In this document: positions 5,967-14,383 of the stretch, one piece after another | Layout: every line of letters starts with the position of its first letter | Position numbering within the stretch: the first letter of the stretch is position 1 | NCBI GenBank assembly: GCA_016937975.1 | Contig: JAFGVN010000068.1 | Location: 1-64,000 of the forward strand | Length of the DNA stretch: 64,000 nucleotides | DNA from: Clostridia bacterium | Lineage (GTDB): Bacteria > Bacillota > Clostridia > Peptostreptococcales > Acidaminobacteraceae | Direction of reading: 5' to 3' | Notes under the pieces: model-generated | The model's input: the letters and a program-made list of their open reading frames with translations, nothing else | Told to the model about the DNA's origin: nothing | Databases searched by the model: none | Translations under genes and position numbers: made by a program

Positions 5967-8570
5967 TTATTGATGAATTTTATATTTAAAAGTTTTAAAA
6001 TCAATTTCTATGCTGATACTAGCCAAATCATTGTGCCACTCGATTTTAAGTTCATGATCTTCACTTGGCAACAGATTTATACGTGAGTCTCCCGTAAAAG
6101 CAGGATGACTGTTTCTTAATTTAAGAAGGTCCAGTTGAGCAGTAACAACAGGCTCTGATATTTTACTATAAATCTCATCCATGGTGAAATTCGTTCTGTT
6201 AATTTCTTTATGAGCCAAGGAACCTGCTGCTTTAACGGCCTCATAATCATTCTTTCCACCAAACAAATCCAAATACCATACTTGGGGTTTCCCAGGCATA
6301 AACATCTGTAAAGCTCTCGCCAAAATTAATTTACTTTCATCTTCACCAATGGCACTGAAATACGTTGCATTTACCTGATAATATAAATTTTTCTTACCGT
6401 GTAAATCTTTTACGTGACCACCTCTTGCCACTACAACTTTAATTAAGTTTTCTATTTGCTCATCTGGCAGTAAACCTTTTAAGTCCAATAATGGTATGCC
6501 ATCATGACAACCTAACATATTGACAGTTTTTATATTCTCATCTAATATTTCGGTAATCCATCTTTTTAAGTAAGAGGCATCACTTCTTTCAAAGGCATCT
6601 ATAATTAAACCCGGTAAAAAGAAATCATATGTCATATAGCCTTGTTCTGCTATTTTTGAGTGAATCTTTTCATGATACATGGAATGTATTTCTGGCAAAA
6701 TACTTAAACCACGAGCTTGTGCCATCTCATTCACTTGATCAAGAACTTCCCAGGTTTCAGGATCATTTAAAAAGTTTCTTTTCCCTGGCGCTTTAGGTGC
6801 ATAGGCAAAAGCATCCAATCTAACAATCTCAGCACCATAACCTGCAATTTTATCCAATGTATTTTCATAAAACGCCCAGACCAAAGGTGATGCAATATTT
6901 AGATCCATTTGACCCAAATACTTTTTATTGGATTCCATATATTCAATGATCTTATTTTTATATGGCTCTGAGATATCAACATTCAAGTCATCTAAACATT
7001 GATGCTCATCCAATTGTTTGTTGAAAGCTTTCGCTAAAACTTCGGCTTTTCCATATTGTACTGGAATCAAAGCCATAATGTCTTGGGGATCCAACTTTTG
7101 ATATCTAATTTCCTGATAGAAAGTATTCCAGTAAGGAATATATGCTCCATTAGGCATTCTAACCCTTAGGATTGGTAATCCAGGTTTCCTAAAGAACATA
7201 TCTTTTGTATAACTTTCATCTGGAATTAGAACACCCTCTTCAACCTTGCCACATCCAGCCCAAAATTCATTCCAATTAATGAAAAAGTCCTTATATTTAG
7301 AATCTGTACCATGTTTCAATAAATCCTGAAATTGTGGGGATAACACTGAAGCATGATTCAAAATAAAATCCAATTTCAAGTTAATCTTTTCATTTTTTAA
7401 GTTTTCCAAGTCATGATAGCTGACGAGTGTTTCGTTTAAGTCATAATCTATAACTGAAAATCCTCTATCCAAATCTGTATTAAATAAACTTGGCAAAATG
7501 TAAAAAGATTCAAAGGCTCCACTTACTTCTTGACATGAAAGCAAATCAACTGAACCAGATAACTTGCCACCTAAACTATCAGGATATGCGTTAAACATCG
7601 GTCCCATCTTTACTGTTCTAGGTTTTGAAATTTTCAACAAAGTTTTATAATCAATTAACTCCCCTGATTTAGTCAATATTAATTTTGCTTTTTTACTTTG
7701 TAACAATAATTTTTCTTGTTCCAATTTTAAGACCATAGACGTAAAAGCACTGTCTATTTTACCGTCTCTGTTTCTGCTTGCTCGATGTGCTAAAGTTTCT
7801 TCAGGTGTGCTGTTCAGTAATATAGGAATATCTACACCATTTAAATAGTCGTTGTTACCATGGGTCCACTCAATAATCAACACTTTAATATCACCAAAAG
7901 AAACATGATCATACCACAAGTCATCGATGGTTCTTCCCATTCTCTTTAAGGCAATAAGGGTTTCATTGGACTTAAATTTTTCAATGATTTCATTGATCTG
8001 ATCAAAATCGATTTCATGTGGAGTGCCCAAGTAAGATTTAAGCCCTTTTATACCTTCACTTTGGTAAGCTGAAAGCCATGGGTATGTTTGACATAATGCA
8101 ACATCAGCATCTTTTTCATCTTTCCACAATTGAATCAATTGATCTTTTATTGATGATGTATATTGATTTTTCTTTATCAACCCTTTAAGTCCTGAAGTTC
8201 TAAAAACATTTAATCTTTCAGCATCATTATATTCAGGAATTCTTCTTGGATAATTATCACCCGATAAAATATAAGTATTAATTTTCATCTGATTCAAGTA
8301 ATACCCAATTAAGGCACCTGTTTCTGATTTGCCAACACCTGAACCGCCATGTATGGATATAACAATTTTATCCTGCACAAATAAAATTTCCTTCATAAGC
8401 TTCAGCAAAGGTTTAAAGAGATTATTGGTATTCACTATATGAGTTTCATTAATTTTAATCTTGTCACCCGGCATATCACCTTTAGGGATCGAATGTACAT
8501 CCTCTATAGATGGCGGTTGCCAAGTTTCTATTTGATTTTCAAGTATATTTAACAAATTATTTTTAACCAT
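5967..8570 (-). CDS. Bidomain protein: N-terminal uridine-kinase-like P-loop kinase fused to sucrose-phosphorylase-like GH13 enzyme
   Basis: Walker A ISIHGGSGVGKS near residue 80; GH13 catalytic motifs EIVRLDAFAYA (nucleophile Asp), LSILPEIHS (acid/base Glu), LGCHDGIPLLDLKG (HD), and PGKPQVWYLDLFGGKNDYE. Confidence 0.85.
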   Translation of the reverse strand: MVKNNLLNILENQIETWQPPSIEDVHSIPKGDMPGDKIKINETHIVNTNNLFKPLLKLMKEILFVQDKIVISIHGGSGVGKSETGALIGYYLNQMKINTYILSGDNYPRRIPEYNDAERLNVFRTSGLKGLIKKNQYTSSIKDQLIQLWKDEKDADVALCQTYPWLSAYQSEGIKGLKSYLGTPHEIDFDQINEIIEKFKSNETLIALKRMGRTIDDLWYDHVSFGDIKVLIIEWTHGNNDYLNGVDIPILLNSTPEETLAHRASRNRDGKIDSAFTSMVLKLEQEKLLLQSKKAKLILTKSGELIDYKTLLKISKPRTVKMGPMFNAYPDSLGGKLSGSVDLLSCQEVSGAFESFYILPSLFNTDLDRGFSVIDYDLNETLVSYHDLENLKNEKINLKLDFILNHASVLSPQFQDLLKHGTDSKYKDFFINWNEFWAGCGKVEEGVLIPDESYTKDMFFRKPGLPILRVRMPNGAYIPYWNTFYQEIRYQKLDPQDIMALIPVQYGKAEVLAKAFNKQLDEHQCLDDLNVDISEPYKNKIIEYMESNKKYLGQMDLNIASPLVWAFYENTLDKIAGYGAEIVRLDAFAYAPKAPGKRNFLNDPETWEVLDQVNEMAQARGLSILPEIHSMYHEKIHSKIAEQGYMTYDFFLPGLIIDAFERSDASYLKRWITEILDENIKTVNMLGCHDGIPLLDLKGLLPDEQIENLIKVVVARGGHVKDLHGKKNLYYQVNATYFSAIGEDESKLILARALQMFMPGKPQVWYLDLFGGKNDYEAVKAAGSLAHKEINRTNFTMDEIYSKISEPVVTAQLDLLKLRNSHPAFTGDSRINLLPSEDHELKIEWHNDLASISIEIDFKTFKYKIHQ

Positions 8571-9924: not shown

Positions 9925-9930
9925 TATAAT
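9925..9930 (+). promoter_or_regulatory. Candidate -10 element of the 9963-13499 operon
   Basis: TATAAT followed by leader and GGAGG SD before ATG at 9963; the -35 element is weak. Confidence 0.4.
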
Positions 9931-9962: not shown

Positions 9963-10853
9963 ATGAAAGTAGATTACATTGATAAAATCATAAACAAACC
10001 CTCTCTTAAAGAAATGGACCTAACGAAGCAGTTTAATTATGGTTATGACTGGAAGCAACAAAACAAATCTTCCCAACCCATTAAAGAAGAACATCTATTG
10101 CCATGGCTTTTTTTTACCCTAAAGCATGGTATTACTTCGATTCCTAAGAAAGCTAAAACACTTGCCATCTTCGGAAGTATTATTTTATTGGTCAATCTAA
10201 TCTTTTGGACCATCAATACATACATGTTGCCAACATACTTAAAGCCATTTAAAGGCCTGATTAAGGCTGTGGTTTATCTTACTGCTACATATAATGATGT
10301 TGTTCCAAAAACCATATTCTGGGTATTGCTCTTTACTTTTGGCAGGCGATTATTCAAACAAATTATACGTCGTGGTCCAGAGAAGACCTTTGGTTGTATG
10401 AAAAATACTTTGCCTATGTTTATGGATTCCATAACAACTTTAAAAGAAAAAGCACTGCCAATTATTACCTTTGGTATTGGTTTTGGGTTAGTCGTTGCCA
10501 ACAATTTCGCCAGTTATTCAAGATTTTCTCAAGCCAGAAATAAATCTGACAAATACTTTATTGTATTAATTATGGCTTTTACCATTAGCTATTTGTTAGG
10601 TGAAGCAAACAAAACAGGAATTTTCAAATTTGTGAAATTAGCTTCAAAGGATTTGTCGCTTCTTGTTCTTAAAAAAGAGGGCTTAACGGATGAAGGTGTC
10701 TTTCTTATTTTATCAGGCTTTATCCTTGGTCTTCTTCTGGACGCACCATTCATATGGATGAAAGCAATGTATGGAGGCTATATCAGCGGTTTAATTCTGA
10801 TCCTAATCGCTATAGGGCTCTGGTTTAAGCATAACTATATTAAGAAAAGTTGA
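9963..10853 (+). CDS. Multi-pass membrane protein of unknown function
   Basis: GGAGG SD; several hydrophobic segments; first gene of the rSAM cassette. Confidence 0.7.
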   Translation: MKVDYIDKIINKPSLKEMDLTKQFNYGYDWKQQNKSSQPIKEEHLLPWLFFTLKHGITSIPKKAKTLAIFGSIILLVNLIFWTINTYMLPTYLKPFKGLIKAVVYLTATYNDVVPKTIFWVLLFTFGRRLFKQIIRRGPEKTFGCMKNTLPMFMDSITTLKEKALPIITFGIGFGLVVANNFASYSRFSQARNKSDKYFIVLIMAFTISYLLGEANKTGIFKFVKLASKDLSLLVLKKEGLTDEGVFLILSGFILGLLLDAPFIWMKAMYGGYISGLILILIAIGLWFKHNYIKKS

Positions 10854-10861
10854 GGTCAAAT

Positions 10862-11983
10862 GTGATTACCTATCAAGATCCAAATTATCATTATCGTGTT
10901 GCCTTTAACCCTGATACAGGGGTTTATGTCAGAACATCTATTCTGGATGAAGATTTGAAACAAACAACCCTTGAACCCTTTAGAGGTTCTTATCCTCATT
11001 TATTGGATGTGGGCATTATGGGTCATTGCCTTCATGGTATAAGCGGAAAATGTGGAGCATCTGGTGTTCAATGTTATCAATCAGGGAACATTAAACAAGA
11101 ACCACATATGTCCTTCGAAAACTTTAAAAAGCTTATTGACGAAAGTGAGAATCAGACCTTTCAAATTGCACTTGGTGGCCGTGGTGATCCTGATCAACAT
11201 CCTGATTTTTTAAAAATGATCCGATATGCAAAAGAACATAATATAGTACCGAATTTTACAACTTCTGGATATGGCCTGGATTTTAAAATCTTGCCTGAAG
11301 TCAAAAAATATTGCGGTGCTGTTGCAGTAAGTTATTACAGAAATTATTATACTTCAAGAGCAATCGAAGCATTATTAGCCCATGGTATTAAAACCAATAT
11401 TCATTTTGTTTTGGGAAATAATACAATAGATGAAGCCATCGATTGGATTGAAAACAAAAAAATCCCAAGTGGTATCAATCGAGTGATCTTCTTACTTCAT
11501 AAGCCTGTCGGTAATGGAGAACAAAGCAATGTTTTATCCTTTGATGACCCAAAAGTTAAATACTTTTATTCCTTGTTTAATCAAGAAGAAAACTGCTTGA
11601 TGGCTGGTTTTGATACTTGTACTGCCCCTGCTCTAATTCATTTTGCTGACAAAATTGCTAAATCATCTTATGATACATGTGAAGGTGGACGTTTCTCAGC
11701 CTATGTAACACCCGATTTTAAACTTCTTCCCTGTTCATTTGATGGCAGACAAAAGTATGCTGTTGATTTAACAAAGTATTCTGTAAAAGAAGCATTTAAC
11801 AGTATAACTTTTGACCAATTTAGAGAAAAGTTTGTTCAAACAATAGACCGATCAAATGAATATAGCACCTGTTTGAACTGCAAACATCAAGAGCTTTGCA
11901 TGGGCGGGTGTCCACTCATGAAAGAAATCGTCTTATGTCATGATATTCAAAGAATCGATCCGACTAAGGAGGTAAGATTATGA
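10862..11983 (+). CDS. Radical SAM/SPASM-type protein with atypical N-terminal Cys spacing
   Basis: GHCLHGISGKCGASGVQCYQSG (C-X7-C-X6-C), GGRGDPDQHPDF, and C-terminal Cys cluster CEGG...LLPCSFDG...CLNCKHQELCMGGCPL. Start set to GTG 10862, 6 nt after the GAGG SD, rather than TTG 10850. Confidence 0.8.
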   Translation: MITYQDPNYHYRVAFNPDTGVYVRTSILDEDLKQTTLEPFRGSYPHLLDVGIMGHCLHGISGKCGASGVQCYQSGNIKQEPHMSFENFKKLIDESENQTFQIALGGRGDPDQHPDFLKMIRYAKEHNIVPNFTTSGYGLDFKILPEVKKYCGAVAVSYYRNYYTSRAIEALLAHGIKTNIHFVLGNNTIDEAIDWIENKKIPSGINRVIFLLHKPVGNGEQSNVLSFDDPKVKYFYSLFNQEENCLMAGFDTCTAPALIHFADKIAKSSYDTCEGGRFSAYVTPDFKLLPCSFDGRQKYAVDLTKYSVKEAFNSITFDQFREKFVQTIDRSNEYSTCLNCKHQELCMGGCPLMKEIVLCHDIQRIDPTKEVRL

Positions 11984-13290
11984 AAATAAGCGTAGATCAT
12001 GTTACCAATTCATCAAGTGAATCTTTTGGTACAGTCATTATAGATACTGCTATAGCAATCAGTGTGGCTATACCTTATATAGCAGCGACGTTAAATGGAA
12101 ATGTAGATGCGGAAACTGAAGTGGATATTCCAGAAGATGACTGGGGTTATCAACCCCATGATTCAACGGATCCAAAAGATCCTCCTGGTACGATTGTCCA
12201 AAACAATAGAGATGGTACCATAACAAAGACTCTACCTGATGGTACAAAAGGAACGCAAATGAAAGATGGGACCATTTATGTTACACAACCTGATGGAACA
12301 ACTGGCGTCATTGATCCTGATGGTCACCAAAGAATGACTTTGCCTGATGGTACCAAAATAGAGCAATATACCGACGGCACTGCATATGCCGAATATCCAG
12401 ATGGCACGACAAGAGTCGAATACCCTGATGGTACTGTAAAAGAACAAGATCCAAAAGGTGAAGTTGTACAGATGAATCCTGATGGCACTTTTGAAGTCAC
12501 TGAACCTAACCAAACATGGACAAAAGTATATGCTGAGGATGGTAAACTTCTAAAAGGAAAAACTGAAACTGGAAGTGAAATCATAGTTGATGATCAAGGA
12601 GAAATTACAGGTAAATTAGTGGATCAGGATGGCAACGAAATGAAAGTATCTGGTAATTTAAATGAAGGTTTTAAGGCTGAAGATACAAAAGGAAATTTTG
12701 TTGAAGTCAATGAAGATGGCGAAGTCTCTAAAGTCTCATACAAAGATGAAAATGGTCATTATCAAATAAATGATGATGGCACTATGGACATAAATTATAA
12801 AGATCCTACAAGTGGGGATGAAATAGCCATAGAATTTGATCCAAATAAAGGTCTAAACTATAAAGATTCAAAGGGCAATTACATCAATATTGATCAAGAA
12901 GGTAAAGGTGAAGCACATCTAGTAAAGGATGATATGGAACTTCAGATCAATAAAGATGGCAGTGGCTACTACAAAGATAAAGATGGTGAAATGAAAACAG
13001 ACGGTAAAGGTCGTTTGGAAGTCAAAGATTCTGATGGTAATTATGAAATTGTTCAAGAAAACGAAGATGGTACAGTAACCTATGAAAACGGTAATAAAGA
13101 GGGTCAACAAATGACTGCAATTAAGGATAAAGATAACAATTATATCTTTACCAAAAATGACGGCAGCCAATTAGTGATTAAGGATTCAGGTTTAACCATC
13201 ACGGACAAAGATGGTAATACAACATCTTACACGAAAGCAGATATTGAAAATATGGTCAGTGAATATCATCAGTTAGGAGGTCAATCATGA
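11980..13290 (+). CDS. DGT-repeat protein with N-terminal VTNSSSESF motif and one hydrophobic segment
   Basis: N-terminus MKISVDHVTNSSSESFGTVIIDTAIAISVAIPYIAATLNG, then many degenerate ~10-12-aa (Y/P)-PDGT-like repeats and DGN/DG repeats; GGAGG SD upstream; overlaps the previous stop. Confidence 0.75.
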   Translation: MKISVDHVTNSSSESFGTVIIDTAIAISVAIPYIAATLNGNVDAETEVDIPEDDWGYQPHDSTDPKDPPGTIVQNNRDGTITKTLPDGTKGTQMKDGTIYVTQPDGTTGVIDPDGHQRMTLPDGTKIEQYTDGTAYAEYPDGTTRVEYPDGTVKEQDPKGEVVQMNPDGTFEVTEPNQTWTKVYAEDGKLLKGKTETGSEIIVDDQGEITGKLVDQDGNEMKVSGNLNEGFKAEDTKGNFVEVNEDGEVSKVSYKDENGHYQINDDGTMDINYKDPTSGDEIAIEFDPNKGLNYKDSKGNYINIDQEGKGEAHLVKDDMELQINKDGSGYYKDKDGEMKTDGKGRLEVKDSDGNYEIVQENEDGTVTYENGNKEGQQMTAIKDKDNNYIFTKNDGSQLVIKDSGLTITDKDGNTTSYTKADIENMVSEYHQLGGQS

Positions 13291-13499
13291 ATAATTCCAT
13301 TCCAAAAGAACATGCTGAAATGATATTGGAAACTCTAAAGATCAAAAATAAAATGAGTGAGTCAAGCACTTTGAAAGCTGGAAAGGAAATGATGCTAAAA
13401 GCTAAGGAACACACTTCAACTGCTCATTATGACTATAAGGACTTAAAATACAAAATGGATATGTTAAAGGACTTTGTTAGTTTTTTTTCAAAAGATTAA
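13287..13499 (+). CDS. Small helical protein (70 aa) of unknown function
   Basis: Overlaps the preceding stop codon; GGAGG SD (tcagttaGGAGGtcaatcATG). Confidence 0.65.
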   Translation: MNNSIPKEHAEMILETLKIKNKMSESSTLKAGKEMMLKAKEHTSTAHYDYKDLKYKMDMLKDFVSFFSKD

Positions 13500-13520
13500 A
13501 GTAGAGATATTCTCTACTTT
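13497..13520. terminator. Rho-independent terminator (bidirectional)
   Basis: AAAGTAGAGA-TAT-TCTCTACTTT between convergent genes. Confidence 0.7.
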
Positions 13521-13521
13521 T

Positions 13522-14241
13522 CTATTTTTTGAGCCAATTATAATTTTCTTGATACATAATTGTTTCTTCCCATCGGTCATCATTATACGGACAGATTTCA
13601 AGACATAACTGACACCCTTTTATAAAAGGTAATTTAAAATTTACTTCTTTATTCTTCAACTGATCATGGATGATTTCTAACTCATGGTTTATACATAGGT
13701 TTTCATTTTTTTCATAGCCCTTTTCAAGGGCTTGTACAGGACAATTTCTAATACAACGACTGCAATGATCTGGACATGGTGGTGGCAAGTCGTCATTAAT
13801 AAATTCCATTTCCAGATCTGTAAACCACACATGTAAATAAACATGGGAACCTTCTTCTGTATAGAAATGCATGTTCTTTCTATATCGCCCAATTTTCATT
13901 TCAACTGCCAATTTCTCTATCGTCTTCAAATCCAAAGTCATACCATGAATAAACTGAATACCTTTGGATTCTAAAAAACTTTCAAAATCATGAGCAGTTT
14001 CATGTTCCAATGTATTTTCTATAAACCTGCTCTTAAAGGCTTCATAAAAATTCAAATGACTCACTTTTTCTTCGGGTAATTTGTATATATTATAATGAAA
14101 AGCACAAATTATAATGGATTTAATCCATGGAAATCCTTTAATTATAGTCCCTAACCCTTCAAGTTTTTCAGTTTTCAAGGTACCAAATCTTGTATAACCT
14201 ATATCCAATGCTTCATCATGTAAAATTTGTATCAAACTCAT
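13522..14241 (-). CDS. QueG-like double 4Fe-4S cluster protein (short form)
   Basis: CPDHCSRCIRNCPVQAL and GCQLCLEICPYND clusters. Start set to ATG 14241 (MSLIQIL) behind a GGAG SD; the ORF extends to 14313. Confidence 0.7.
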   Translation of the reverse strand: MSLIQILHDEALDIGYTRFGTLKTEKLEGLGTIIKGFPWIKSIIICAFHYNIYKLPEEKVSHLNFYEAFKSRFIENTLEHETAHDFESFLESKGIQFIHGMTLDLKTIEKLAVEMKIGRYRKNMHFYTEEGSHVYLHVWFTDLEMEFINDDLPPPCPDHCSRCIRNCPVQALEKGYEKNENLCINHELEIIHDQLKNKEVNFKLPFIKGCQLCLEICPYNDDRWEETIMYQENYNWLKK

Positions 14242-14383
14242 AAGCAACTCCTTTTTCATGAATAGTTTAACATGATTTATTAGGACTGCTCCATTCAAAT
14301 CCCTTATAAACATCCCGATGAACTTATAGCAAAATCTTTTTATTTAATTGATTTTTTGCTAGAATAAGGCAAAGGAGATATTT

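Follow-up and report, generated by a model that had tools for sequence, protein, structure and literature searches.

A four-gene operon in the window, the whole 64,000-nucleotide stretch of DNA analysed here, is best read (probability about 0.7) as a two-part system in its bacterial form, which includes a membrane protein; in this system an enzyme would dock on and modify tags carried by its client proteins. The system would consist of a radical SAM (rSAM)/SPASM enzyme and one or more clients bearing the sequence MK[IV][RK]xD[FY]VTNSSSxS[FY]. This tag is a peptide under strong protein-level conservation, located N-terminally on unrelated domains and found almost only alongside the enzyme family. 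The analysis strongly supports the core idea of an earlier note on this DNA, that an rSAM maturase is encoded next to the protein on which it acts. The tag/rSAM system is far wider than the window cassette, occurring in phage arrays and Avs-like antiviral cassettes as well.

The window operon and its bacterial relatives

The operon comprises four forward-strand ORFs (9963-10853, 10850-11983, 11980-13290 and 13287-13499) with 4-nt overlaps, confirming the co-directional, overlapping arrangement described in the earlier note. The first (9963..10853), characterized by ORF listing, family search, hydrophobicity and cassette comparison, encodes a 296-aa membrane protein with at least four hydrophobic segments. 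The second frame is open from TTG 10850 (377 aa). The rSAM start is probably GTG 10862 rather than this TTG; the protein read from the GTG (MITYQDPNYHYR...) aligns with the starts of the nearest rSAM homologues, and GAGG lies upstream. With this start (10862..11983), the rSAM gene would overlap the tag gene only, and not the membrane-protein gene.

The third gene (11980..13290, +) encodes the 436-aa client, in which the features previously noticed were all found: a VTNSSSESF start, one hydrophobic segment and a DGT-type repeat with 21 DG dipeptides, spaced mostly at 9-residue intervals over the first half. Its 16-residue N-terminal tag, MKISVDHVTNSSSESF (11980..12027, +), is the sole copy within the window, and the hydrophobic segment, TVIIDTAIAISVAIPYIAA (12031..12087, +), covers residues 18-36. 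The only family match of the client was the repeat model Tcp10_C. The last gene (13287..13499, +) encodes a 70-aa protein. Neither this protein nor the membrane protein matched a known family in the libraries searched, and the gene set as a whole matched none there, in agreement with the statement that no named system has this composition.

A Shine-Dalgarno sequence (AGGAGG or GAGG) precedes every start in the operon, and TATAAT is present upstream at 9925-9930, as had been claimed. However, no sigma-70-type site with a -35 element was found around this TATAAT and promoter-like sites there were fewer than in shuffled sequences, so that no operon promoter is established. The proposed terminator proved real, with T-rich sequence following a 10-bp stem (13498..13520, +) that reads on both strands (z = -5.3). 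A gene convergent with the operon (13522-14313) encodes a protein with a 4Fe-4S double cluster that is similar to the C-terminal portion of epoxyqueuosine reductases. Elsewhere in the window, an 867-aa protein (5967-8570) adjoining a LacI-type regulator combines an N-terminal P-loop GxxGxGKS with a weak mid-protein alpha-amylase match, an odd kinase/glycosidase-like fusion.

In all 14 bacterial cassettes of the window type, the membrane protein is conserved directly upstream of the rSAM gene, a constant partner there, and it is absent from phage cassettes. The DGT repeat occurs in only 4/14 of these cassettes, the others carrying coiled-coil or other unrelated domains, including coiled coils of 470-500 aa and a 717-aa protein with HELVH. 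The repeat as a substrate feature was therefore rejected, and of the proposed maturase/substrate pair it is the pairing that stands. The 70-aa protein, for which a chaperone or recognition role had been considered, has homologues detected in DGT-type cassettes only, and in just 3/4 of them (including F. bizertensis and one more relative); it is an accessory, neither a core part nor a general recognition element. Downstream of the coiled-coil client in locus L336 (7608-8546), with equivalents in L029, L335 and L337, lies a protein of about 310 aa that in L336 has a sub-threshold EspG-family match. Type VII secretion was rejected despite this neighbour, with EssC above cut-off in 0/14 genomes.

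What is conserved in the client is its first 16 residues, MK[IV][RK]xD[FY]VTNSSSxS[FY], not the DGT repeat, and enzyme homologues in relatives adjoin proteins starting MK[IV]xx[DG][FYH]VTNSSS whatever the tail. rSAM homologues thus do occur without the repeat protein, beside coiled-coil or other tails, an outcome that the earlier note had named as counting against its proposal. Yet the maturase/client idea is unharmed, because the conserved part is the VTNSSSxSF N-terminus.

A portable tag and its enzyme

A pattern search of bacteria and phages yielded 230 distinct tag-bearing proteins, whose tails fall into 51 clusters (about 50 unrelated families); the tag is portable. All 233 distinct tag occurrences lie exactly seven residues past the start, every one N-terminal. 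Positions 10-13 (NSSS) are nearly fixed in the 230 proteins by construction of the search; conservation also extends to K2, D6, F7 and the I/V that follows the tag, some of these lying outside the search pattern. All six Ser codons are in use at each invariant tag Ser, indicating that selection acts on the tag peptide. In a model of a phage client (pLDDT 91 overall), tag residues 1-10 fall below 50 and are predicted to be disordered, and a folded domain begins at residue 13; such an end, conserved yet unstructured, is what would be expected of a peptide that another protein reads. The modelled fold matched no PDB or viral structure at E <= 0.001. The tag corresponds to no named family in Pfam, NCBIfam or PHROGs; PHROG 7397, of unknown function, matches 9/51 tail representatives. 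Searches of open-licence PMC papers for the motif and for phage rSAM enzymes turned up none on the tag, and none with VTNSSS in this sense.

Tag and enzyme are partners. The rSAM family and the tag pattern matched identical sets of genomes, 11 of 100 among the relatives and 10 of 399 in the phylum; pooled, 20 of about 497 bacterial genomes hold both and none holds just one (Fisher p about 4e-36, a nominal value that overstates the independence of these genomes, which share ancestry). An N-terminal VTNSSSxS[FY] tag and a family rSAM occur together in the window genome, 19 others, and phages. Two surplus pattern matches in bacteria were chance, one reading VTNTTSGMF and the second interrupted by an in-frame stop, and no tag was found in 16 further relatives that hold only weak matches from other SPASM-type enzymes. 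A scan of wider genome contigs with a single protein gave one locus only, and the spread beyond the phylum thus rests on viral contigs, phages and plasmids.

These data bear on whether the conserved start is instead a DNA or translation element, or an artefact of the motif search, as might be feared where phage contigs were partly selected by the motif itself. Such an explanation is already contradicted by the use of all six Ser codons and by enzyme-first searches, which find the tag adjoining the enzyme in bacteria, and the reversed tag pattern gave zero matches as a control in the bacterial genome searches; we give it almost no credence.

The window enzyme lies directly upstream of the client, as had been noticed, and is indeed of the SPASM type, with PF13186 (22.2 vs 21.5 bits) and TIGR04085 (33.8 vs 27 bits) above cut-off. 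Its seven SPASM cysteines are present, and the cysteines are invariant in alignments. PF04055 (Pfam Radical_SAM) scored 22.4 bits, below the gathering score of 29.5, probably owing to the cluster motif, which reads CX7CX6C in place of CX3CX2C; the three cysteines are kept with changed spacing. Members with CX3CX2C and the same tag occur within the family, in which CX5CX3C with an extra Cys, CX7CX2C and CX7CX8C are also seen, so that a single enzyme family tolerates four or more different cluster-cysteine spacings. The modelled fold class is that of rSAM enzymes: the model (pLDDT 81) matched rSAM structures with probability 1.00, the nearest solved structures being SuiB (8.5e-11), anSME, CteB, PqqE, TigE and SkfB. 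Membership of a named maturase family was rejected, every equivalog score being far under its cut-off: the best NCBIfam equivalog reached 46.7 bits against 380 (known RiPP maturases: ranthi-, sacti-, streptide, mycofactocin), and TIGR03942 (anaerobic sulfatase maturase) 16.7 against 349. The enzyme also matches PHROG 7293, of unknown function.

In the enzyme tree, whose drawn root is uncertain, 13 bacterial membrane-protein cassettes form one clade within a larger clade that includes phage CX7CX6C enzymes, and the Avs-like, ABC-linked and pseudo-T-even groups form separate clades. No natural enzyme-tag fusion was found in the bacterial cassette comparison. Phage rSAM genes of the same family can have frames of 753-786 aa (L119:3795-6131, L188:22-2283, L168:3159-5519); that of L188 is split by an intein-like insertion immediately before the conserved ALGG motif. 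In another phage contig (L173:724-2583), the rSAM frame is joined to an N-terminal GIY-YIG/NUMOD-type homing endonuclease.

Phage, antiviral and transporter contexts

An enzyme-first search found the enzyme in 24 viral contigs, and the strict tag was present in 91 stretches. In large phages, the enzyme is adjoined by arrays of small tagged genes, two to seven in number and unrelated to one another. Of 50 tag-bearing phage contigs, a set picked in part via the tag motif itself, 43 contain the enzyme, as do all 18 of at least 100 kb; the seven without it are all under 66 kb and are probably fragments. As a control, 40 large phages were fetched by an unrelated motif. Four of them (KP15, RB16, an RB43-like phage and Lw1) hold the enzyme, and the same four hold the tag, about 20 kb away; one extra pattern match, reading FIRNSSSNNF, is no tag. 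The KP15 enzyme, KP15_135, is separated by about 20 kb from KP15_97 and KP15_102, two unrelated tagged proteins that both begin MKIRSGFVSNSSSSSF. Across 50,697 phage records, the enzyme was found in 174 and a KP15_102 relative in 175, forming one related group. KP15_102 itself adjoins proteins of 106 aa and of 738 aa, the latter with a vWA domain (KP15_100 to KP15_102; L215:7827-10886), an arrangement common to other pseudo-T-even phages.

In a putative antiviral context (L031, L330, L331), an MBL nuclease, a trypsin-STAND protein and a small protein are followed by a tagged protein of 132-138 aa and the enzyme, and the trypsin-STAND/MBL nuclease genes give Avs1a/Avs1b/Avs2 matches. A SMEK/NACHT variant of this context occurs on Agrobacterium and Rhodobacter plasmids. 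In three further loci (L332, L333, L334), the pair adjoins a FecCD-type ABC importer, Peripla_BP_2 (metal-type) binding proteins and a BioB-like radical SAM protein, and the tagged client has a C-terminal Cys-containing tail; this context is possibly metal related.

Of the partners, the enzyme alone recurs in the bacterial, phage, Avs-like and ABC-transporter contexts, with no other common factor seen. This speaks against the tag being a targeting, assembly or degradation signal for some other factor, merely co-inherited as a module with an enzyme that has another substrate. The conserved membrane protein of bacterial cassettes would fit such a signal, as would the hydrophobic segment after the tag, which is typical of bacterial cassettes and mostly absent from phage clients; on balance we regard this explanation as very improbable.

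The proposed modification and known systems

We propose that the flexible tag enters the enzyme, which would use a 5'-deoxyadenosyl radical, a putative activity modelled on its structural neighbours SuiB, anSME, CteB and PqqE, to change a residue in the invariant N-S-S-S-x-S-[F/Y]; a crosslink, Ser oxidation and epimerisation are candidates. Given the tag-enzyme partnership, we somewhat favour a modification within this stretch, but the tag may serve for docking alone, the modified residue lying elsewhere. In the latter case, the tag would be a leader-like recognition handle and the enzyme would modify the variable part of the clients, as a RiPP maturase does. The phage arrays, in which a single enzyme accompanies many tagged proteins, do resemble a leader with variable cores, and conservation also covers the tag's first half, MK[IV][RK]xD[FY]. 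However, the approximately 50 tail families share no residue pattern above shuffles (15/51 vs 11-16 in shuffles), at least one tail is a well-folded domain in the model, and the clients, at 60-717 aa, are not the short leader-plus-core precursor peptides of known RiPP maturases, making modification of the tails unlikely. In the window operon, the modified tag and the hydrophobic segment might, more speculatively, enable anchoring or export of the DGT-repeat protein by the membrane protein; this role is a guess, as phage enzymes do without the membrane protein. Whether one rSAM family modifies the portable 16-residue tag in phages, membrane-linked operons and Avs-like cassettes alike, as a general N-terminal tagging system, appears to us evenly poised.

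The window enzyme shares with anSME, SuiB, CteB and PqqE the modelled fold and a SPASM domain with seven cysteines, and anSME resembles the proposed enzyme in acting on full proteins. It differs from these enzymes in its 14-17% identity, below every named equivalog cut-off, in its CX7CX6C loop, in a tag that lacks the C/S-x-P/A-x-R target motif of the anaerobic sulfatase maturase, and in its proposed substrate, an N-terminal tag common to unrelated proteins. In RiPP systems such as those with Nif11/NHLP leaders, one enzyme acts on several substrates with a common N-terminal segment and a variable remainder. The tag system is similar in this respect, and in its phage arrays, but its clients are folded and reach 717 aa, its 16-aa segment opens the protein, and genes for a separate core, a protease or export do not recur. 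In PEP-CTERM/exosortase and LPXTG/sortase systems, a short tag on unrelated proteins is found only alongside a dedicated enzyme. The present system shares this logic; its tag is N-terminal rather than C-terminal, its enzyme a radical SAM protein rather than a transpeptidase, and its phage clients mostly soluble.

Maturation of partner proteins by rSAM enzymes is already known; the chemistry of a portable tag would be categorically new if shown, and a system of a fixed N-terminal tag with an rSAM enzyme is apparently undescribed. If the proposal is true, it would provide a function for an rSAM gene that about 170 phage records (KP15, RB16, RB43 and Lw1 relatives) list as hypothetical or 'putative radical SAM' and, at once, for dozens of anonymous phage protein families, which large phages would use as a suite of modified proteins. 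Beyond this, the protein modification would itself be new, engineering might gain an N-terminal modification tag, and phage biology would be linked to Avs-like immunity.

In VMAP-ternary conflict systems, an rSAM-SPASM enzyme is predicted to modify a small FxSxx partner in a putative immune cassette (PMC7159879); there, in contrast to the tag system, the FxSxx motif is C-terminal, a peptidase is present and no tag of the VTNSSS kind was described. AVAST (Avs1-like) nuclease/protease-STAND cassettes (PMC12799240), in whose description radical SAM is not mentioned, are similar to L031, L330 and L331, where the tag/rSAM pair follows the MBL nuclease and trypsin-STAND genes; the window cassette has none of those nuclease/STAND genes. 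The five-gene cassette of these three loci (L330:2553-8549, L331:2490-8344 and L031), with a protein of about 140 aa encoded by its third gene, looks like an undescribed Avs1-like antiviral variant.
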